Shown: piece after piece, positions 5,476-25,688 of the stretch
Layout of the letters: every line of letters begins with the position of its first letter
How positions within the stretch are numbered: the stretch's first letter is position 1
From: a virus
DNA length: 25,688 nucleotides
Reading direction: 5' to 3' (one strand)
IMG/VR virus record: IMGVR_UViG_3300025138_000312
Span: 1 to 25,688 of that record
Notes under the pieces: generated by a model
What the model was told of the DNA's origin: nothing
Seen by the model: the letters and a program-made list of their open reading frames with translations, nothing else
Database searches by the model: none
Made by a program: the position numbers and the translations under genes

Positions 5476-5618
5476 CTAATACAACTTATAGGCGATACAA
5501 CCTATACGGTACTTAGAATCGTTCTAATACAACCTATGGGCGATACAACCTATACGGTACTTAGAATCGTTCTATACAACTTAAAGGCGATACAACCTAA
5601 AGCTGTATTAGAATCGTT
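5476..5618 (+). repeat. Three 48-bp direct repeats (iteron-like)
   Basis: Units at 5476-5523, 5524-5571 and 5572-5618 (48, 48 and 47 bp) run head to tail. Each carries two TACAACYTAWRG-type words around GGCGA and ends in TTAGAATCGTT. At each junction this reads as TTAGAA-TCG-TTCTA(A), an interrupted palindrome. Units 1 and 2 differ at only two or three positions and unit 3 is more diverged. A partial related copy (AATACAACCTATAGGCGA) precedes them near 5421. Iterons, operators or a promoter array are all possible. Confidence 0.75.
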
Positions 5619-5721
5619 CTAATCAACCTAAAGGAGATCACCTTAAAGGAGAGCGAGTAAAACAAAATACACTCAACCTATAGGAGAGTGCCTCTGAGTC
5701 TGACTCATAGTATTACTCATA

Positions 5722-6053
5722 CCCCTACCATGGGAAATAGCCGTACCCCTACCATGGGAAATAGCCCCCACCGTGGGAATTGGCCTGACCCCTACCGTGG
5801 GAAATAGTCTTAGTCTGACCTCGCTTCGCTCATGGGGCCTGAGTCATACTCATAGTAATAGTCTGACCCCTACCGTGGGAATTGGTCCGAACAATAGTAT
5901 TACTTTCGCTTCGCTCATGGGGCCGAGTCATACTCTGAGTCTTAGTCTGACCCCTACCGTGGGAATTGGTCTGAGTATGATTTCGTCTATTACTCCGCAA
6001 GCGGCTCTGAGTCTTACTAATAGTAATACTATGACCCCTACCGTGGGAAATAG
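5722..6053 (+). repeat. Seven copies of a 19-bp motif, left cluster
   Basis: Copies start at 5722, 5746, 5765, 5789, 5867, 5951 and 6035. The consensus is CCCCTACCRTGGGAA followed by ATAG or TTGG. From 5789 the copies are 78, 84 and 84 bp apart, with related spacers: TCGCTTCGCTCATGGGGCC occurs in two of them (5821 and about 5908), and AGTCTGAC-type runs occur throughout. The same core recurs at 10222-10350. The CCC...GGG core could form a short hairpin or be a protein site. Confidence 0.8.
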
Positions 6054-6280
6054 TCTGAGTAATCATATGTTTAATAGCCGTAGTTCATCCGTTTACTCAA
6101 GAAAATACTAAGACTATGACTAAGAGTTTGCACCCTATCTGGACCTATGATTTTGTTGCCCGATAAGTCCAGTTTACGATTCTCAGACGATATTTCAGAC
6201 CTTAAACCCCCGACAACAAAAGAAAATCCCCCAGAGAGCTTTCCCGCCGACCACTCTGAGATAAACTCTTAGAATAACTA

Positions 6281-6336
6281 TTGTGATCACAAGCTGGGAA
6301 TTTTGTGATCACAGACTTTTGCATTTGTGATCACAA
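6281..6336. promoter_or_regulatory. Three TTGTGATCACAA operators, 22 bp apart
   Basis: Perfect or near-perfect 12-bp palindromes lie at 6281-6292 (TTGTGATCACAA), 6303-6314 (TTGTGATCACAG) and 6325-6336 (TTGTGATCACAA). Spacing is exactly 22 bp, about two helical turns, so bound dimers would sit on one DNA face. They lie about 130 bp upstream of the first rightward gene. This is the classic layout of a repressor or activator array; the protein is not identified in the window. Confidence 0.75.
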
Positions 6337-6467
6337 TAGTTTAACTATGAGTAAACCTCAGAGAACAAATACCTGCTTGACTTCTGAGGCTATTTGTGGT
6401 AATTAAAGGATGGGTCAGAATGACTTTGGCCTGCTCACTCTGAGCTTTTACTAATAGGGAAACTATT

Positions 6468-10056: not shown

Positions 10057-10130
10057 ATACTAATAATATTAATCTGACTAAGGCTCTGAGTATTACTCAG
10101 GGTCTTTTTCTTTGTCTTACTCTGAATAGT

Positions 10131-10202
10131 ACTCTTAGTCATACTCTTACTAATACTCTTAGTCATACTCTTACTAATACTCTTAGTCAGACTCTTAATC
10201 AG
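10131..10202 (+). repeat. Tandem repeat, three 24-bp units of two 12-bp halves
   Basis: Units at 10131-10154 and 10155-10178 are identical (ACTCTTAGTCAT then ACTCTTACTAAT); the third at 10179-10202 is diverged. Every 12 bases the word ACTCTTA recurs. Similar AGTC/TAATAGT low-complexity text fills the spacers of the left repeat cluster. Confidence 0.85.
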
Positions 10203-10221
10203 ACTCCCAGGATTTTCAATA

Positions 10222-10350
10222 CCCCTACAATGGAAAGCCCTCCGTGGGAATTTGGCCCCTACGTGGGAATTTTGTGTGACAAATATGTCACCCCTACGTG
10301 GGAATTTGTACCCTCCGTGGGAATTTGCTTGCACCCTCCGTGGGAATTTG
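10222..10350 (+). repeat. Six copies of the CCGTGGGAATT motif family, right cluster
   Basis: Copies begin near 10222 (degenerate, CCCCTACAATGGAAAG), 10238, 10256, 10291, 10311 and 10334, with the form CCCCTACGTGGGAATTT or CCCTCCGTGGGAATTTG. They are shorter-spaced variants of the seven copies at 5722-6053. TGGGAATTTTGTG is shared between the copy at 10256 and the sequence between the first two operators at 6294-6306, tying the two regions together. Confidence 0.8.
10276..10291. promoter_or_regulatory. GTGACA-AATA-TGTCAC inverted repeat (putative operator)
   Basis: Perfect 6-bp arms with a 4-base centre lie between two copies of the GTGGGAATT motif. The layout (motif, then TTTTGTG, then palindrome) parallels the TTGTGATCACAA operators at 6281-6336. 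Binding protein unknown. Confidence 0.5.
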
Positions 10351-18478: not shown

Positions 18479-20375
18479 CTATCTACCAACAGACTACCAA
18501 ACCTTTATTGCGACCAGCCGTTATGCTCGGTGGCTTGAAGGTCTTGGACGTCGAGAGACTTGGGGCGAGACAGTAAATCGGTACATGACTAATATTGCTG
18601 GCAAGTACTTAGCTGATGATCCCGACACCATGAGTGAGATCGAGTCAGCTATTCTTAGCTTATCTGTTATGCCAAGTATGCGATCGCTTATGACTGCGGG
18701 TATTGCTGCTGAACGTGACAACACTTGTATGTACAATTGTAGTTACCTACCCGTAGATGATCCTAAGTCTTTCGATGAGGCTATGTTCATCTTGCTTTGC
18801 GGTACGGGGGTTGGTTTCAGTGTTGAGCGTCAGTTCGTCAGTAAACTCCCTGAGGTTCCTACGCTTTTCGAAAGCGAAACGACTGTCGTCATCAAGGATA
18901 GCAAGGAAGGCTGGGCTAAGGGTCTCAGGCAAGTGTTGGCACTCCTATGGGCTGGTGAAATTCCTAAGTGGGATGTGTCTAAAGTTCGCCCTGCTGGTGC
19001 TAAACTAAAGACGTTTGGTGGTCGGGCTAGTGGCCCTGCACCTTTGGTTGACCTGTTCAACTTTGCAGTCACTACATTCAAAACCTCACAGGGCCGTAGC
19101 CTGTCAAGTCTTGAGTGTCATGACCTTATGTGTAAGATCGGTGAAGTTGTCGTTGTAGGGGGTGTTAGACGGTCTGCTATGATCTCTCTAAGTAACCTAT
19201 CTGATGATCGTATGCGTCATGCTAAATCAGGGGCTTGGTGGGAAAATGCAACTCATCGTGCCTTGGCTAATAACTCTGTAGCCTATACAGAGAAACCTGA
19301 TAGTATGTCCTTCATGCGTGAGTGGACTGCACTTATGGAAAGTGGGAGTGGTGAACGTGGTATCTTCAACAGACAAGCATCAGTTAAGCAAGCTTCAAAA
19401 AACGGCCGTAGAGAGTCTTGCTATGAGTTCGGAACAAACCCCTGCTCGGAGATCATTTTACGACCGAATCAGTTCTGTAATCTCACAGAGGTGGTCATCC
19501 GTGCAAAAGACACTGTGGAAGACCTTGCAGACAAAGTCCGCCTTGCGACTATACTTGGAACCATACAGTCAACCTACACACACTTCCCATATCTGCGAAA
19601 GATGTGGAACACAAATACCGCAGCAGAACGACTGCTCGGTGTGTCACTCACGGGGATAATGGACAACAAACTAATGACACTGGCTAATGATGGCTTGTCA
19701 GAAACTTTGGAGCATTTGAGGGATGTGGCTATTTCTACTAACGCTGAGTGGGCTGACCGTCTTGGTATCCCTCATAGCACTGCTATTACTTGCGTTAAGC
19801 CCAGTGGAACAGTTTCCCAACTGGTTGACTCAGCTTCTGGTATTCATGCTCGTCACAGTCCCTATTATATCCGTACTGTGCGTGGAGATAATAAAGACCC
19901 ACTGACACAGTTTATGATAGATCAGGGTATCCCTAATGAGCCTGACGTTATGAAGCCCGATGCTACTACAGTGTTTAGCTTTCCTATGCAGTCTCCTCTG
20001 GGCGCCGTTCATACTGCTGACATGACTGCGATCGAGCAGCTAGAGATGTGGCTGATGTATCAACGTCACTGGTGTGAGCATAAGCCTAGTGTTACGATTA
20101 ACGTCAAGGGAGAGGAGTGGCTAGAGGTAGGTGCCTTTGTGTACAAGCACTTTGATGAAATGTCAGGTGTATCGTTCTTGCCTTTCAATGAGCATACGTA
20201 CCAACAGGCACCCTATCAAGAGTGTAACAAAGACCACTACCTTGAGGTCACTGACACCTCACCTAAGAGTATCGACTGGACTAAGTTATCTGAGTATGAG
20301 GTAGAGGACAACACCAGTGGCATGCAGACTATGGCTTGTACTGGTGACGTCTGTGAAATGGTGGACATCACATGA
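18468..20375 (+). CDS. nrdJ: Ribonucleotide reductase class II, adenosylcobalamin-dependent
   Basis: Reduces ribonucleotides to deoxyribonucleotides without oxygen dependence, using B12 to make a thiyl radical. The 635-residue protein follows the monomeric RTPR type: MYNCSY (C91, redox cysteine), WDVSKVRPAG, GGVRRSAMI, the active site NPCSEI (N324, C326 thiyl, E328), QFCNL (C337, second redox cysteine), VKPSGTVSQLVDSASGIHARH, and the C-terminal CTGDVC pair (C624, C629) that re-reduces the site. All key residues are present. It is shorter than the Lactobacillus enzyme (about 739). Phage class II reductases are known in roseophages, whose hosts make B12. The product pairs with ThyX and the MazG-like protein in dNTP supply. 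Confidence 0.95.
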   Translation: MKSNYLPTDYQTFIATSRYARWLEGLGRRETWGETVNRYMTNIAGKYLADDPDTMSEIESAILSLSVMPSMRSLMTAGIAAERDNTCMYNCSYLPVDDPKSFDEAMFILLCGTGVGFSVERQFVSKLPEVPTLFESETTVVIKDSKEGWAKGLRQVLALLWAGEIPKWDVSKVRPAGAKLKTFGGRASGPAPLVDLFNFAVTTFKTSQGRSLSSLECHDLMCKIGEVVVVGGVRRSAMISLSNLSDDRMRHAKSGAWWENATHRALANNSVAYTEKPDSMSFMREWTALMESGSGERGIFNRQASVKQASKNGRRESCYEFGTNPCSEIILRPNQFCNLTEVVIRAKDTVEDLADKVRLATILGTIQSTYTHFPYLRKMWNTNTAAERLLGVSLTGIMDNKLMTLANDGLSETLEHLRDVAISTNAEWADRLGIPHSTAITCVKPSGTVSQLVDSASGIHARHSPYYIRTVRGDNKDPLTQFMIDQGIPNEPDVMKPDATTVFSFPMQSPLGAVHTADMTAIEQLEMWLMYQRHWCEHKPSVTINVKGEEWLEVGAFVYKHFDEMSGVSFLPFNEHTYQQAPYQECNKDHYLEVTDTSPKSIDWTKLSEYEVEDNTSGMQTMACTGDVCEMVDIT

Positions 20376-20809
20376 CAGAGGTAAAGAAGCGGTTTGAACA
20401 AAGTTTGTACGATAGGTTTGACAACCCTGCTAAGGTCAAGCTTATCGAAATCTTGGAGAAGCAGGGACACACAGTGTCTAACGTAAAGGAGAACTACTTT
20501 GCAGATGTAGAGACAATCAAGAAGGGTGTCACCTATTACTCAGAAGGCGAAGTCAAGAGGGCATGGAAGGAGGAGTGGCCCGATGAGTGGGCAGAGATAC
20601 GTATACCTCATCGCAAGGAGAGGCTATTAAAGAAGTATGACAGTAACGTAAACTTCTATGTCTTTAACGCCTACTTGACACAGTGCTGGATGATTAGGGG
20701 GCAACAAATGACAGAGGAGACTGTCCGAGGCGCCACCGGTAGGTACATTCAAAAGGGTGAGTTGTTCTATCATATCCCATACAAAGAAGCGGAGTTGATC
20801 AGACTGTGA
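20372..20809 (+). CDS. Putative PD-(D/E)XK-type nuclease-like protein, 145 aa
   Basis: The product begins MTEVKKRFEQSLYDRFDNPA. A FADVE strand (D45) is followed by YYSEGEVKRAW (E60-x-K62), the arrangement of a PD-(D/E)XK active site. Then come a Trp-rich segment (EEWPDEWAEIRIPHRKERLL) and a strand NVNFYVFNAYLTQCWMI. I know similar hypothetical proteins from marine phages without tested function; a nuclease or nuclease-fold binding role is inferred from the motif. It begins in a 4-bp overlap with nrdJ and ends in a GTGA overlap with the PhoH-like gene. Confidence 0.5.
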   Translation: MTEVKKRFEQSLYDRFDNPAKVKLIEILEKQGHTVSNVKENYFADVETIKKGVTYYSEGEVKRAWKEEWPDEWAEIRIPHRKERLLKKYDSNVNFYVFNAYLTQCWMIRGQQMTEETVRGATGRYIQKGELFYHIPYKEAELIRL

Positions 20810-21501
20810 CACAGCAGCAACCCAAGACAAGACGTAAGACAACCTATAAAGGTGCAGATCAGAGGGTAACTTCTGGCCTCACCCCTAAGACCACTAAGCA
20901 AAAGGAGTTTATAGAGGCCCTTAAAGACCACACTCAGGTCTTTGTGTTAGGACCAGCAGGTACGGGTAAGACCTACATTACTGCCACAGTAGCTGCTGAC
21001 CTGTACACCACTAAGAGTATTGATAAGATTGTTATTACTAGGCCTCACGTAGCTGTAGGAAAAGACTTAGGGTATTTGCCAGGTTCTTTAGAAGAGAAGA
21101 CTTACCCTTGGGCCTTGCCAGTCTTAGACGTACTCATCAAACACTTAGGTAAGGGTACAGTGGAAACAGGTATTAAGTCTGGTAATATTGAAATGGCACC
21201 ACTGGCATTAATGAGAGGACGAAGCTTTGAGAACGCCTTTATCATAGTTGACGAGACTCAGAACATAACCACCCACGAACTTAAGATGTTACTAACTAGG
21301 GTAGGGGAGAACTCTACTATCGTGCTTAACGGTGACGTCCAACAGTCGGACTTAAAGGAAGCAGATGGGTTGTCTAAGGTGATCCACCTAGCTAAGAAAT
21401 ACTTGTTGCCCGTATCAGTTATTGAGTTTGGGGTTGACGACATAGTGAGAAGTGATATATGTGCTCAATGGGTACGTGTTTTTATGAAGGAGAAGTTATG
21501 A
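20806..21501 (+). CDS. PhoH-like ATPase
   Basis: A GTG start at 20806 overlaps the previous stop (GTGA). The 231-residue protein has Walker A GPAGTGKT (residues 49-56), ITRPHV, Walker B IIVDETQN, and the LNGDVQQSD segment typical of PhoH-family P-loop ATPases. The N-terminal 30 residues are basic (TRRKTTYKGADQR). PhoH-like genes are common in marine phages; the host gene belongs to the phosphate regulon in some bacteria, and an RNA helicase/RNase partner role is proposed elsewhere. Function in phage is unsettled. It is coupled to the next gene by an ATGA overlap. Confidence 0.9.
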   Translation: MTQQQPKTRRKTTYKGADQRVTSGLTPKTTKQKEFIEALKDHTQVFVLGPAGTGKTYITATVAADLYTTKSIDKIVITRPHVAVGKDLGYLPGSLEEKTYPWALPVLDVLIKHLGKGTVETGIKSGNIEMAPLALMRGRSFENAFIIVDETQNITTHELKMLLTRVGENSTIVLNGDVQQSDLKEADGLSKVIHLAKKYLLPVSVIEFGVDDIVRSDICAQWVRVFMKEKL

Positions 21502-21722
21502 TATACGTGTACGTTGTGATACTCAGCATGTGGGAGGACGGGGTACCTGTCTACTCGGTGAGAGCCCCTAATGCGGTGTATAAGACGGAAGAGAGGTGCC
21601 AAGCAGTGAGAGAGTTAAATATGCTATATCTGCTTGAGACTTCACCAAGCCCTACAGCAGAGTTTCGTAGTCTTTGCGTAGGGATGCAGTTTCAGAACCA
21701 GAAGCCTAAAGGAGACTTGTGA
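21498..21722 (+). CDS. Hypothetical protein, 74 aa
   Basis: I choose the ATG at 21498, preceded by AAGGAGAAGTT and overlapping the PhoH stop; the frame is open further upstream inside PhoH. The product begins MIYVYVVILSMWEDGVPVYS, possibly a beta strand rather than a membrane segment, followed by a helical part (TEERCQAVRELNMLYLL) and a Pro-rich, basic end. Two or three cysteines are present. No family is recognised. The end overlaps the DUF3310 start. Confidence 0.6.
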   Translation: MIYVYVVILSMWEDGVPVYSVRAPNAVYKTEERCQAVRELNMLYLLETSPSPTAEFRSLCVGMQFQNQKPKGDL

Positions 21723-21973
21723 TGGCTAAGTGGAAAGAGATGATCAGTGACTTTGACAGTGACATGGTTAATCACCCGCCCCACTACGGGACAGGTTCCA
21801 TTGAATGTATTGAATACATCGAAGACTTCTTAACCGAAGAGGAGTACATCGGGTACCTACGTGGGAATATCGCCAAGTACTTACACCGATGGCGATACAA
21901 GAATGGCATAGAAGACCTGAAGAAAGCCCAGTGGTATGGGAACAGGTTGATGAAGGTGGTGGAAGATGCCTGA
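21722..21973 (+). CDS. DUF3310 protein, 83 aa
   Basis: The product contains MVNHPPHYGTGSIECIEYIE, then LRGNIAKYLHRWRYKNG, then IEDLKKAQWYGNRLM, which is the DUF3310 pattern (VNHPxHY, GNxxKYxxR, DLxKAxWY) of small phage proteins, sometimes annotated as nucleotide kinase-like. Biochemical role is not firmly established. The start may be GTG at 21719 or ATG at 21722; AGGAG sits 8 bases before the ATG, and TGATG overlaps the previous stop, so ATG is preferred. The C-terminus overlaps the next gene. Confidence 0.8.
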   Translation: MAKWKEMISDFDSDMVNHPPHYGTGSIECIEYIEDFLTEEEYIGYLRGNIAKYLHRWRYKNGIEDLKKAQWYGNRLMKVVEDA

Positions 21974-22121
21974 TGTTGTGTCCATCATACTGGTAGTTCA
22001 AACACTACTGATCCTTTGGTTAGCAGGAAAGGTAGACAGGCTAGAGAAAGACATAGACTTTAAGATGAAGGTTCCCATGTATGCTCTCTTTAGGCACTTA
22101 GACGAAGAGCACGGAAAATAA
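21966..22121 (+). CDS. Small membrane protein, 51 aa
   Basis: ATG at 21966 inside the end of DUF3310 opens a 51-codon frame. An N-terminal transmembrane helix (VVSIILVVQTLLILWLAG) is followed by a charged, coiled-coil-like part (KVDRLEKDIDFKMK) and ends HLDEEHGK. Topology is probably N-out, C-in. Last gene of the plus operon, ending 2 bp before the terminator stem. It might be a late-timed membrane factor; no family is recognised. Confidence 0.6.
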   Translation: MPDVVSIILVVQTLLILWLAGKVDRLEKDIDFKMKVPMYALFRHLDEEHGK

Positions 22122-22123
22122 AA

Positions 22124-22159
22124 AAAGCCCCCGTATCCTTAATTGGACGCAGGGGCTTT
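22124..22159. terminator. Bidirectional intrinsic terminator between convergent operons
   Basis: AAAGCCCC (22124-22131) pairs perfectly with GGGGCTTT (22152-22159); an inner TCC/GGA pairing around TTAATT extends the stem. An A-run before the left arm gives a T-run on the minus strand, and TTTACTTT follows on the plus strand. It ends the replication operon (plus) and the lysis block (minus), which meet here. Confidence 0.85.
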
Positions 22160-22169
22160 ACTTTGTGTA

Positions 22170-22301
22170 TCACTTTTTGTTATTAGTCTTGGAGATTAAA
22201 TCTGCTTGTTGTTTAATTAGTTGTTGCTGCCTCTCTAGATCAAGGTATTGCTTGTCTAGCTCTGATATTTGCGGGAACTCTAATACGCTACCGCTTTCCA
22301 A
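22170..22301 (-). CDS. Possible small coiled-coil protein, 43 aa, TTG start
   Basis: A frame opening at a TTG at 22301 runs 43 codons to a TGA just before the terminator. It would read ESGSVLEFPQ after the start, then ISELDKQYLDLERQQQLIKQ and finish LISKTNNKK: one very Gln- and charge-rich helix. It overlaps the holin end by 14 bp. No ATG or strong ribosome site is present, which lowers confidence; without it the 116 bp up to the terminator would be an untranslated end. The helical composition is far from random, so I keep it as a candidate. Confidence 0.35.
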   Translation of the reverse strand: MESGSVLEFPQISELDKQYLDLERQQQLIKQQADLISKTNNKK

Positions 22302-22641
22302 AGAACTTACTCACAGATCTCATACCTATACTGGCACTAACGATACCACCTAAGGCAATCTGATACCACTGAGGCATAACTTCAAGTGCAGCAAAACCTC
22401 GGGCTACTATGTCGTTGCCCCAGTCTCCACAGAACGCAAGTATGAGAGGGATACTGAACAGTAGGGTGATCCATTCGTCCTTCCAACTGTTCTCAGTAGC
22501 TTTCATAGCTTCTATGTCCCAGTCAATCTCGCCTGTAAGCTGCTTCTTCTTTATCTCAGCTTCGGTTAGCTTGACCTGAGTCTTACCATCTATGATGCTT
22601 GTAGCAAGCCCTGTAAGGCTATTAATAATAGAACCAATCAT
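22288..22641 (-). CDS. Holin, 3TM type (gene-transfer-release family)
   Basis: Holins open the inner membrane to end infection. The 117-residue protein has a hydrophobic N-terminal segment (MIGSIINSLTGLATSIIDGK), a charged middle (TEAEIKKKQLTGEIDWDIEA), the characteristic SWKDEWITLLFSIPLILAFC membrane segment, and a C-terminal hydrophobic segment (YQIALGGIVSASIGMRS) ending KFFGKR. This matches the 3TM holin family first named in the Rhodobacter gene transfer agent. It overlaps the upstream gene by 4 bp (ATGA) and lies with other lysis genes next to an M15 endolysin. Confidence 0.75.
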   Translation of the reverse strand: MIGSIINSLTGLATSIIDGKTQVKLTEAEIKKKQLTGEIDWDIEAMKATENSWKDEWITLLFSIPLILAFCGDWGNDIVARGFAALEVMPQWYQIALGGIVSASIGMRSVSKFFGKR

Positions 22642-22844
22642 TTTTCATGTCCTAACCATACAGCAAAGGCTCCGGTCATAGCACCTGTCACAGTAGCTGT
22701 CAGAGCAGTGGCCTGTGAGGTCATAGCATCAGGTGGTAGGTGCATAAACCAGAACAGTACTTCGATGTACATGTATGTCATAACCATCATCATAATACGG
22801 GGAAGTATCTTCCAGTGTAAAAGTCTTTCCATAGTCACGGTCAT
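22638..22844 (-). CDS. Two-span membrane protein, 68 aa
   Basis: The product begins MTVTMERLLHWKILPRIMMM, with one transmembrane segment (IMMMVMTYMYIEVLFWFMHL) and a second (ATVTGAMTGAFAVWLG) separated by a short loop, ending HEK. PxxMTxx-type sequences ending TGAFAVWxGHE are familiar from marine phage lysis cassettes. It could be a second holin, an antiholin or a holin regulator. Its start touches the stop of the upstream secreted protein and it is coupled (ATGA) to the holin. Confidence 0.65.
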   Translation of the reverse strand: MTVTMERLLHWKILPRIMMMVMTYMYIEVLFWFMHLPPDAMTSQATALTATVTGAMTGAFAVWLGHEK

Positions 22845-23144
22845 TCATCGTCCTTTCAATCCGTCTATAATTTCTTGTGCAGAAGGTCTACGTTTCTTAA
22901 AGTCGTATACACATTCAAAACTCTGAGGGCATTGTCTGTAAGCAGCCCCATACTCATACTTAGGTATCAAAGGTGTAGGAAAGAACGTAGCAGAAGACCC
23001 GTTAGGTCCACGATACCAGCACTGCTGTACACCCATTATGCTAATACGTTTCCACAGCTTACAAATAACCATCTTAGGTTCTTTAGCCTCCGACACCCCC
23101 ACAGTGAAAATTAAGAGTGCCGACAACAATAATGTTTTTACCAC
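22845..23144 (-). CDS. Secreted cysteine-containing protein, 99 aa
   Basis: The product has a clear signal peptide (MVKTLLLSALLIFTVGVSEA, cleavage probably after SEA), followed by a periplasmic domain with four cysteines (VICKLWKR, QQCWYRG, YRQCPQSFECVYD) able to form two disulfides, and a basic end KRRPSAQEIIDGLKGR. No lipobox is visible, so it is not an Rz1-type lipoprotein. Its place in the lysis block suggests a periplasmic role in cell-wall or outer-membrane disruption; not recognised further. Confidence 0.6.
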   Translation of the reverse strand: MVKTLLLSALLIFTVGVSEAKEPKMVICKLWKRISIMGVQQCWYRGPNGSSATFFPTPLIPKYEYGAAYRQCPQSFECVYDFKKRRPSAQEIIDGLKGR

Positions 23145-23620
23145 GAACCTGTACCTAACCCAATTAAATATACCCCACCAAAGACAACAAAGATAATTCC
23201 TATAGACAGTACAAACAAAGCTATGTTATTGATGATCTCTTTCTTAGCTTCCATAGCCTTGTAGACAGTCTCTTCACGTTCTTTTCTGATCTGCCTTCTT
23301 AACTTAATCATTTCGTCCCAAGTATTAGGACCAAAACGCATATTCAAAAGAAACATCAACTCTTTTTGTTGAGCCGCTAGTTTTTTCTTATGCACGATTA
23401 TTTCAAAGGCTTCCTTTTCTATACTGTCGGCAGACGTTAGCTTTTGTATAGTCGAAGGGGCCTTTCTTTGTTGTTCCGCTTTATGAAGATCAGAGGCGGC
23501 TCCGAACCATTCCCCTAGCTGCCCCATAACGTCTTCTATCTCTCTGCCATGTTGCACTAGCTTCTTAGTCATAGTGAAGGCAGCAGTACAGGCTGATATA
23601 GCCGTTATGGGGTCTAGCAT
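23138..23620 (-). CDS. C-terminally anchored coiled-coil membrane protein, 160 aa
   Basis: The product begins MLDPITAISACTAAFTMTKK and has a long charged, helical middle (EKEAFEIIVHKKKLAAQQKE, LRRQIRKEREETVYKAMEAK) followed by a transmembrane helix (NIALFVLSIGIIFVVFGGVY) and a short Gly-rich end. Domain order, coiled coil then C-terminal anchor, and the LxxCTAAFTxxKxxxQ start are seen in several marine phage genomes next to lysis genes. A role as spanin-like or virion-associated membrane protein is possible, not established. Overlaps the genes on both sides. Confidence 0.6.
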   Translation of the reverse strand: MLDPITAISACTAAFTMTKKLVQHGREIEDVMGQLGEWFGAASDLHKAEQQRKAPSTIQKLTSADSIEKEAFEIIVHKKKLAAQQKELMFLLNMRFGPNTWDEMIKLRRQIRKEREETVYKAMEAKKEIINNIALFVLSIGIIFVVFGGVYLIGLGTGSW

Positions 23621-23871
23621 TAGTCTCTCTCCATTACCTCAAGCATCCTTTCAAGGGACTCTTTAATTCCCTTTATGTTCTCTTCTATCTTACCTAACTG
23701 TACGGCTTGGGTAACTGAGGATGTTTCAACAGCCTTAACATCAGCACTTATTCTAACTATAGACGACGAGTTAGCATCTACATCTGCCCTCATCTGTGAT
23801 ATACTCCAAACTATCATTGCAGCTTGTAGTACTAAGGCAAACAATAAACTTGCCGATATATTTTTACCCAT
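23620..23871 (-). CDS. Small membrane-anchored coiled-coil protein, 83 aa
   Basis: I choose the ATG at 23871 rather than the in-frame codon at 23901, because GAAGAAGAG lies at a usable distance and the product then begins with a normal membrane anchor (MGKNISASLLFALVLQAAMI). The rest is a coiled coil (VETSSVTQAVQLGKIEENIK, GIKESLERMLEVME). It looks like a small Rz/i-spanin-like or holin-associated protein: N-terminal transmembrane helix with a periplasmic coil. Its stop and the next start share a base. With the secreted protein downstream it could form a spanin-type pair, an inference. Confidence 0.55.
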   Translation of the reverse strand: MGKNISASLLFALVLQAAMIVWSISQMRADVDANSSSIVRISADVKAVETSSVTQAVQLGKIEENIKGIKESLERMLEVMERD

Positions 23872-23893
23872 TACAAAGCACTCTTCTTCCCCC

Positions 23894-24274
23894 CTAGTCA
23901 CAGGGGTAGGCTTTCCAATCTAACTGAAAATGAGGACCATCTGGGAACTTCTTCCAATCGCCACCCCAAACAATTTTAATATCTAACTCCTCCGCTGCCT
24001 TCTTCATTGCATCACCAATAGGGTAGAACTCGTCCCACTCCCATGATACAGGATAAGGCACAACATCTACTGCATGTCCTGTCAGGTGACGAGACTTAAG
24101 TGTAGTTGACTTGCCTGTCTTCTTAAGCATACGCTGACGTTCAATATTACGAACACCTTCAGTTACACTAAAGTCCTTTTCACTAATCTCTAATGCTCTT
24201 GTGACAACAGCAACCATATCAGGATGTACCCCAGACAAGTTCTGCTTACTTCGTAGTCCTAGTTTGTATCCCAT
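23894..24274 (-). CDS. Endolysin, peptidase M15 (D-Ala/L-Ala-D-Glu type)
   Basis: Cuts peptidoglycan cross-links or stem peptides. The 126-residue protein has the zinc motif SRHLTGHAVD (H63, D70) and DGPHFQL (H115), the signature SxHxxGxAxD plus late His of the M15 family, with VRNIERQ and VWGGDWKKF as conserved neighbours (the Trp-Gly-Gly-Asp-Trp turn). No signal peptide, so it needs the holin for release. It is compact and full length. Start ATG follows TAAGGAGCAACC. Lies upstream of the membrane lysis proteins in the same direction. Confidence 0.9.
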   Translation of the reverse strand: MGYKLGLRSKQNLSGVHPDMVAVVTRALEISEKDFSVTEGVRNIERQRMLKKTGKSTTLKSRHLTGHAVDVVPYPVSWEWDEFYPIGDAMKKAAEELDIKIVWGGDWKKFPDGPHFQLDWKAYPCD

Positions 24275-24284
24275 TGGTTGCTCC

Positions 24285-24566
24285 TTAAGATGGTTTAGTG
24301 GGCCAAGTTATTGTGTTAGGGAATCCTTCTTGTGCAGGTACGTCCCTAAGAGAAGACCTATAGGAGACCCACTCAGATGACATTGTAAGGTCGCTAGAAG
24401 CCATCCAATCAGTTTCAGCTAACTTAACGTCTCGTTCCTCACGAACAGATACAGCAGCCCTTTCATTGGCTCCGTCAGCCCATGCTTGTTCTTCAGCATG
24501 CCTTGCAGTCTGTTCTTCAGAACTTAATTCAATAAGCTGTCCATTTACGTTTTTATAATTTGGCAT
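24285..24566 (-). CDS. Phage tail assembly chaperone (Phage_tail_APC type), 93 aa
   Basis: Such small proteins aid tail fibre assembly. The product starts MPNYKNVNGQLIELSSEEQT, has an Ala/Glu-rich helix (EEQAWADGANERAAVSVREE) and ends with the family's signature: LAETDWMASSDLTMSSEWVS, YRSSLRDVPAQEGFP and ITWPTKP. It lies just downstream (leftward) of the tail fibre gene, the normal place for a chaperone. A second copy of its C-terminal half starts before the fibre gene at 25549, so the fibre is flanked by both. Confidence 0.8.
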   Translation of the reverse strand: MPNYKNVNGQLIELSSEEQTARHAEEQAWADGANERAAVSVREERDVKLAETDWMASSDLTMSSEWVSYRSSLRDVPAQEGFPNTITWPTKPS

Positions 24567-24576
24567 ATCAATTTCC

Positions 24577-25536
24577 TTATGAATTTTTGAAGCCGTAGCA
24601 AGTTATTGTGCCAGATTTATAATTACCACTGCTGGTTTTAAACCGAACGGCATCAACATCAGTTTGGCTTACCCGAGCGCCAAATCTTAGTTCTGAGTTA
24701 GGCACGTTTGTGTTGTTAAAGCCCGTCAAAAAGCTGTTGAATATTGTGTACTGTGCTAAGTGTGGCCCATAACAGTATACTACACCACTTGTGCCACCGT
24801 CAGTATCGGCATTGCCTGTGTTGTCCTTAATTTGCATGTATCCAGCATTACCGCCGTTGGCACCAACAGCACCATGCTTATAATCAGTTCCTCCAGCGTC
24901 AAAACTTGACTGACCATTCCTTCTGATTTGCATGTGAAAATTTTGAACGTCAGTCATCGGTTTTACATTCTGCAAGAAAAACACATAGTTGTCATAAGAG
25001 CCTGCATCACCACTCAAATCAAAATCAACATACGTCACATTATTTATATCAACTGATTCAATGAAGCCTGTACCACCACCGCCAGCAGCAGCAGCCCACG
25101 AAATATCTGTACCATCTGAGGTAAGAACCGTTCCAGCACTACCCTTAGCTAGTCTTGCAGTAGCACCAGAGGCGTTGCCATAGACCAGAGAGCCTCTAGT
25201 TAGGTCATTTAGAGTATTAATCTCATCAGCACTAGCTAGTATTGCTGTAGAACCAAGAGTTAGCCCCTGCGTAGTAATAGAGACAACATTAGCACCAGCA
25301 GCATCTAAAGTAGCTATGACTGTCCAACCTGTACCAGCAGTGTTTCTAATCTTAAGCTGGTAGTTAGTTGTGTCGTACCACCACTGATGGCCCCTGTCCG
25401 TAACTGGGTTCGTTGTAGGGATAGCAGGCTCAGTAGCACCAGAAGAGTTAGTTGCGATAGCTTGAAGAGCGGCGTTAATGTCAGCCCTAGTTTGGGGGAA
25501 GAACTGGTTATCTATAATAAAGTCGTGCTGGCTCAT
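24577..25536 (-). CDS. Tail fibre / receptor-binding protein, 319 aa
   Basis: The product begins MSQHDFIIDNQFFPQTRADI and has the NAALQAIATNSSGATEP segment and a WWYDTTNYQLKIRNTAGTGW repeat seen in tail fibres of marine phages. A middle region of Gly/Thr-rich strands (ITTQGLTLGSTAILASADEI, GSAGTVLTSDGTDISWAAAA) suits a trimeric shaft, and a C-terminal beta-rich tip (YDNYVFFLQNVKP, RRNGQSSFDAGG) is probably the receptor-binding domain. It lies between two tail-assembly chaperone copies, suggesting a fibre module. Host receptor cannot be predicted. Start at the ATG at 25536 after AAGGAGCGTAAGAC. Confidence 0.8.
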   Translation of the reverse strand: MSQHDFIIDNQFFPQTRADINAALQAIATNSSGATEPAIPTTNPVTDRGHQWWYDTTNYQLKIRNTAGTGWTVIATLDAAGANVVSITTQGLTLGSTAILASADEINTLNDLTRGSLVYGNASGATARLAKGSAGTVLTSDGTDISWAAAAGGGGTGFIESVDINNVTYVDFDLSGDAGSYDNYVFFLQNVKPMTDVQNFHMQIRRNGQSSFDAGGTDYKHGAVGANGGNAGYMQIKDNTGNADTDGGTSGVVYCYGPHLAQYTIFNSFLTGFNNTNVPNSELRFGARVSQTDVDAVRFKTSSGNYKSGTITCYGFKNS

Positions 25537-25548
25537 GTCTTACGCTCC

Positions 25549-25688
25549 TTATTCTGGTTTAGTGGGCCATGTTATTGTGCTTGGGAAACCTGCTTGGGCG
25601 GGTATGTCCCTAAGAGAAGACCTATAGGAGACCCACTCAGATGACATGGTAAGGTCGCTAGAGGCCATCCAATCAGTTTCAGCTAACT
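25549..25688 (-). CDS. Second tail assembly chaperone copy, C-terminal part (truncated by window edge)
   Basis: Reading leftward into the window, 46 codons are seen, ending at a TAA at 25549-25551. The product reads LAETDWMASSDLTMSSEWVS, YRSSLRDIPAQAGFP and STITWPTKPE: the same Phage_tail_APC end as the gene at 24285-24566, with only a few changes (V to I, E to A, N to S, S to E at the end). At DNA level the stretch from about 25607 to 25688 matches 24339-24420 almost base for base. Either a recent duplication or gene conversion. The N-terminus is outside the window, so it may serve an upstream fibre gene. Confidence 0.85.
   Translation of the reverse strand, partial: LAETDWMASSDLTMSSEWVSYRSSLRDIPAQAGFPSTITWPTKPE

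Follow-up and report, generated by a model that had tools for sequence, protein, structure and literature searches.

Switching of fibres together with their chaperones, position-specific N-termini with movable receptor modules and successive fibre-chaperone pairs are all already known, as far as the available parts of the relevant reports go. For the R-type syringacin of Pseudomonas syringae, Rbp-chaperone switching has been published (PMC6331570); in the available text, a conserved fibre N-terminus serves as the anchor point, the fibre end and the chaperone switch cleanly and a breakpoint lies upstream of a lysozyme-like gene, as in the locus described here, but no consistent downstream breakpoint is given, whereas in the present phage group, which has two fibre positions, it falls within the 3′ part of the chaperone gene. 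The tail spikes TSP1-TSP4 of Ackermannviridae carry position-specific conserved N-termini and movable receptor modules (PMC8432352), and share with the present group receptor modules on different spikes and a conserved motif at the border; the sections available concern large spikes and describe no separate travelling chaperone gene, in contrast to the short fibres of the present group.

In the accessible text on cyanophage Pam3 gp24-gp25, the chaperone attaches to the fibre tip with its variable N-part and trimerises through its conserved helical C-part (PMC9608196). This two-part build, with a variable N-part and a conserved C-part, is shared by Mu Tfa and by the chaperones analysed here; Pam3 differs in its single fibre, and the text available does not map an evolutionary cut between the chaperone parts. 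Alteromonas phages A5, V22 and P24, in the part of the report available, likewise show a fibre and cognate chaperone common to distant phages, but with DUF4376 chaperones and one fibre-chaperone pair (PMC10579305). Cobaviruses, e.g. Lentibacter phage ICBM2, resemble the present group in that one isolate carries several fibre-chaperone pairs in a row, although module borders are not analysed in the portion available (PMC6775973). Within the literature covered, which took in few subscription journals, no published report was found in which the border of a module lies within the gene for a fibre chaperone, and such a border in combination with two matched sockets appears to be new with respect to the texts available.

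The window, i.e. the whole stretch of DNA analysed, comprised all 25,688 bp of the virus record IMGVR_UViG_3300025138_000312, which is probably a genome fragment. Its terminase was 81.3% identical to that of Roseobacter phage CRP-6, every other match being below 60%, and this places the window with the CRP-6-type marine Roseobacter phages, for which marine abundance is described in the available text (PMC6918029). CRP-6 also has a large tail protein, an anchor-bearing fibre and an M15 peptidase in the order of the window, but it has one fibre, and the PF16778 chaperone was not found between fibre and peptidase. Since the terminase is closest to that of CRP-6 and the gene order is common to both, the host is likely to belong to the Rhodobacteraceae. 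A nucleotide search of named phages with the locus gave no match, and a search of bacterial and archaeal genomes gave two weak relatives only. One locus in a Rhodocyclaceae MAG (L224, 1732-6240) carried a sequence related to the fibre N-terminus (54% over residues 1-89) directly after a J-like C-terminus; this pair sits in a 3.46-Mb bacterial contig, perhaps as part of a prophage.

Table 1. Features of the fibre locus in the window
Feature	Position	Strand	Basis
Conserved small downstream genes, fixed markers	22288..23901	-	comparison with relatives
Individual small marker genes	22288-22641, 22638-22844, 22845-23144, 23138-23620, 23620-23901	-	
M15-type endolysin, fixed downstream neighbour	23894..24274	-	PF13539 and PHROG endolysin, 205 bits
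Junction before the endolysin: final 11 codons of the chaperone (P-S-TAA) with the endolysin ribosome-binding spacer	24275..24317	-	P-S-stop rule
Direct repeat, copy 1	24280..24424	.	self-comparison of the window
Chaperone gene of the endolysin-adjacent (last) cassette, 93 aa, complete	24285..24566	-	Pfam and PHROG
Fibre gene, 319 aa: anchor (residues 1-60), linker (81-150), tip (151-319)	24577..25536	-	N-terminus matches and AlphaFold2
Fibre tip, variable, putatively receptor-facing module	24580..25086	-	tip DNA compared with relatives
Fibre linker; left boundary of the cartridge at linker end	25087..25296	-	DNA alignment borders
Fibre anchor segment, second-position class	25357..25536	-	anchors of relatives
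Junction before the fibre: final 11 codons of the chaperone upstream (P-E-TAA) with the spacer to the fibre start	25537..25581	-	P-E-stop rule
Direct repeat, copy 2	25544..25688	.	self-comparison of the window
Chaperone 3′ end of the upstream cassette, cut by contig end	25549..25688	-	PF16778, 56 bits

The complete chaperone matched PF16778 (Phage_tail_APC) with 68.1 bits, the gathering cut-off being 26.6, and the PHROG for tail fibre assembly; its residues 1-48 (about 24423-24566) make up the tip-specific N-part and residues 49-93 the PF16778 C-part, with repeat copy 1 corresponding to the 3′ half of the gene. The structure 2kz6 was identified as a solved PF16778 relative (E 5e-15). In the AlphaFold2 model of the chaperone (pLDDT 91), a short β-hairpin is followed by helices; a likeness to pieces of DnaK (Z at most 5.8, rmsd 6.5) was taken as a common helical arrangement. 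Foldseek at E <= 0.001 gave no match for the chaperone, the gp25 and Mu Tfa fold included, or for the fibre, and a search of solved structures with the fibre profile gave none. Residues 1-78 of the fibre matched Roseobacter phage proteins annotated as tail fibre. The fibre tip was modelled as all-beta with a pLDDT of about 90, and residues 93-152 stayed below 50, which places the left border described below in a linker that is probably flexible according to this model.

Loci of relatives were collected in three scans, with the chaperone (80 of 82 kept), the fibre (80 of 226 kept) and the neighbouring gene (68), and 179 loci, the window counted in, were left after removal of redundancy. All comparisons were made on assembled contigs, relatives were sampled by similarity, and some loci represent one phage twice, e.g. 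L193 and L129. The locus order was a J-like tail protein, a fibre-chaperone cassette present once or twice, the endolysin and small genes; the M15 endolysin gene was kept in relatives. Among 81 anchor-bearing cassettes, 23 were single, lying between J and the endolysin, 19 were first and 20 last of two, and the remainder were open or unplaced. PF16778 was missing from the second cassette of L186, the first of L111 and that of L191, and some cassettes have another small gene instead of it.

The first cassette of the window is cut off by the contig end, and only the 3′ end of its chaperone gene is visible; this fragment comprises 45 codons at 25549-25686 and was colinear with L082 3747-4357 and L193 6329-6587. 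When compared with L082, L084 and L177, the window was colinear at 85% over the stretch that begins with the upstream chaperone and includes the linker; its tip DNA could not be aligned with the second-cassette tip of these loci, though the flanks aligned on both sides, and from the chaperone end onward the identity was 86-96%. In the relatives L193, L159, L161, L084 and L082, the anchor class of the window fibre occurred at no other position than the second, and the anchor preceding it was of the MAQFDF class in all five of these relatives showing it. Furthermore, the chaperone-to-fibre junction was colinear at 85-88% in the separate contigs of L082, L084, L177 and L193. Because the same junction and a first fibre gene are present in relatives, the concern of the earlier note that the upstream copy might be an assembly artefact has been answered, and another fibre gene is predicted past the contig end.

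It had been claimed in the same note that duplicated chaperone C-terminal ends flank the fibre gene and that about 82 bp of them are almost identical, and both statements were confirmed. The two copies, both matching PF16778, were identical without gaps at 132 of 145 bases, and their core (24343-24424 against 25607-25688) at 80 of 82. This identity is far above chance: the top score of any other ungapped 145-nt pair in the window was 84, and the best 145-nt pairs in three block-shuffled windows scored 66-67. The copies have the same orientation, and copy 2 is truncated by the contig end. Mismatches between them concentrated in the final ~20 codons, where the neighbours differ; the copy before the endolysin ends in P-S-stop and the copy before the fibre gene in P-E-stop. 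Over the last 46 codons the two window copies were 90.6% identical, and only 12 of 983 inter-locus chaperone-end pairs reached this value; the downstream copy was nearer to L168 (94.2%) than to its own partner. A 31-mer from the window end, searched exactly in viral contigs, was found in three of them (loci L222, L005 and L223), none of which extends the window; in L005 and in L168, which lies on one contig with L222, it falls in the endolysin-adjacent chaperone.

Among seven further loci whose two cassettes both carry a chaperone, the between-copy identity was 35-72%, as against 91% in the window; near-identical copies within one genome are thus an exception. These values fit a near-identity that is unusual, not required for exchange and not a general recombination device; most simply, it would reflect tips of one family in both positions.

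Associations between modules were determined with 45 nonredundant of 54 complete cassettes, homology families being cut by E-value. Tip similarity was correlated with similarity of the chaperone N-part at r 0.563 (0/1000 permutations) and with anchor similarity at r 0.012 (370/1000), the permutation tests ignoring shared ancestry and the pairs not being independent. Homologous chaperone N-parts were found in 184 of 210 tip-homologous pairs as compared with 15 of 780 other pairs, and were lacking in 26 of the 210. The N-part adjoins the tip, and this linkage accounts for some of the association. By sequence association, then, the chaperone consists of a variable N-part matched to the tip and a conserved C-part, which by analogy fits the division of labour described for Pam3.

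The module borders were located in DNA alignments. In 493 of 519 pairs with different tips, the left border lay at most 30 nt from where the linker ends, with the end of the linker profile set by choice at residue 150 of the window protein and distances given relative to it. The median position of the right border was 71 nt ahead of the endolysin for 277 pairs with different tips and 293.5 nt ahead of it for 74 same-family pairs. In 41 cassettes, chaperone codons 46 to 31 before the end followed the tip and the chaperone N-part, and the last 11 codons followed the next gene (0/500 permutations); the latter were weakly associated with the tip (r 0.094, 10/500). P-S-stop ended 26 of 27 endolysin-adjacent chaperones and P-E-stop all 14 fibre-adjacent ones, and both copies in the window conform to these neighbour-specific endings. 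Read from these borders, the tip and the chaperone front form a putative cartridge open to exchange, with the linker on one side and the chaperone end on the other, both of them conserved. The exchange handles across cassettes are shorter ones, namely the linker and about 20 codons at the end of the chaperone.

In 15 locus pairs each of the two flanks reached an identity of 93% or more over 400 nt or more; the tips of seven pairs had no blastn match, and those of the other eight were alignable, several being the same phage in two samples. With these seven pairs, and with the upstream cassette seen in close relatives, the idea of homologous exchange at this locus stood as far as exchange of fibre modules is concerned. 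Inversion between the copies, which are direct, fell away, and loss or duplication by crossing over between the chaperone copies was not seen: a first-position anchor was found in 0 of the 23 single-cassette loci, and because none has it, these are not simple deletion products. Inverted repeats around a variable part, as in Mu, were not found, since the inverted pairs at 20000-25688 were short and did not flank the fibre gene. Whole replacement of tips does not suggest a diversity-generating retroelement. The host-range change that had been attached to fibre exchange may follow from it.

Anchor similarity followed position (2/1000 permutations) in 41 cassettes, whereas tip similarity did not (266/1000). 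Covariation was further determined in 17 nonredundant of 19 two-cassette loci: the first anchor covaried with the second (r 0.776, 0/2000) and the J C-terminus with the two anchors (r 0.847 and 0.777, each 0/2000). The first tip, located between the anchors, showed no covariation with J (r 0.126, 149/2000), and the second anchor no association with the endolysin in 11 measurable loci (r -0.09). By nearest neighbour, the J C-terminus separated single from two-cassette loci in 32 of 32 cases; the endolysin region was correct in 62.5% for the same task, a value reached by 90 of 500 shuffles. The window's group thus appears to have position-specific N-termini with position-swappable receptor modules, as described for Ackermannviridae. 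J and the two anchors may be a merely inherited frame.

Taken together, we consider it probable that this is a modular adhesion locus with position-specific anchors and exchangeable tips with cognate chaperone fronts; its modules, their boundaries and associations, and the replacement of tips between nearly identical flanks were observed directly. The J-like tail protein would bear one or two fibres, each starting with an N-terminal anchor that is specific for one docking position, continuing with a flexible linker and ending in a tip that can be exchanged. Every tip would be paired with its own chaperone, whose variable N-part would fit, and by analogy with Pam3 and Mu presumably contact, the tip and whose C-part would be shared. 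The cartridge, which begins where the linker ends and stops within the 3′ part of the chaperone gene, would move between positions and between phages, probably via homologous recombination in the linker and chaperone-end stretches; this route and the physical docking are presumed. The duplicated DNA of the window would then come from two cassettes of one, or nearly one, tip-chaperone family in two positions. More tentatively, and with somewhat less than even confidence, a standard cartridge can be proposed, in which any tip with its chaperone N-part would fit either of two sockets, the linker and the last chaperone codons would be universal couplings, the chaperone gene would be built for internal cutting and its end would go with the following gene, and the J C-terminus would form a co-inherited socket set together with two matched anchors. 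Sequence data by themselves could show where receptor-binding cartridges start and end in this abundant group of marine phages. With a border running through the chaperone gene, it becomes possible to test which part of the chaperone has to match the tip, and also whether two-fibre phages supply both docking sites from one common tip pool.

Conservation of the chaperone end might instead reflect protein constraint on the trimerising domain alone, with no special recombination role. PF16778 is widely conserved and, in the available text, the C-part of Pam3 gp25 trimerises (PMC9608196), but DNA similarity in the last 11 codons goes with the following gene rather than with the tip, which constraint alone does not predict, and we regard this explanation as unlikely. 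A recent tandem duplication of the whole cassette in the window phage, with copies now diverging, would account for a 91% identity that so few inter-locus pairs (12/983) equal; it is nevertheless quite unlikely, given that the two positions hold different anchors in relatives and the window fibre has the second-position class, that the downstream copy is nearer to L168 than to its partner, and that each copy has the ending expected from its neighbour.

The repeat as a dedicated programmed-switching device, acting by deletion, inversion or gene conversion between copies, is very improbable: the fibre gene is indeed flanked by repeats and close relatives do differ by tip replacement, but the copies are direct, between-copy identity is low in the seven other two-chaperone loci, and no single-cassette locus resembles a deletion product. 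A recombinase may be encoded in the part of the genome outside the record. It is hardly credible at all that misjoining or collapse of the downstream chaperone copy produced the contig end. The contig does break within the repeat, a usual site for short-read assembly breaks; against this, 13 of 145 positions differ between the copies, a distinct last codon included, and the chaperone-to-fibre junction recurs at the identity given above in four loci from other contigs. The modular adhesion locus is therefore retained as the best explanation.

Several further arrangements were observed among the collected loci. Within 9.7 kb of another viral contig (L069, 2039-9335) there is an alternating series of seven PF16778-type chaperone genes and short fibre genes, an array far longer than those in the window's phage group. 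In the cultured podovirus ICBM2, three annotated tail assembly chaperone genes alternate with larger genes (L221, 2152-6156). Two anchor classes occur in L183 (1-2071) in reversed order compared with the usual one, and in L186 (7415-8350) and L111 (5651-6365) an ordinary anchor is present with no chaperone between the fibre and the following gene. An alternative unit, in which the fibre is followed by a glycine-rich protein and by a small protein of another kind that gave no PF16778-type match, was found in L193 (6477-8337), L166 (2723-4749) and L167 (1818-3844), both as second and as single cassette.

Elsewhere in the window, tandem repeats with periods of 6-84 and a common motif containing CGTGGGAAT lie at 5476-6061 and 10109-10350; the best ungapped match between these two regions was 84/145, and they are possibly replication or regulatory elements. 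Repeated palindromes around TTGTGATCACAA at 6267-6350 are perhaps operator sites.
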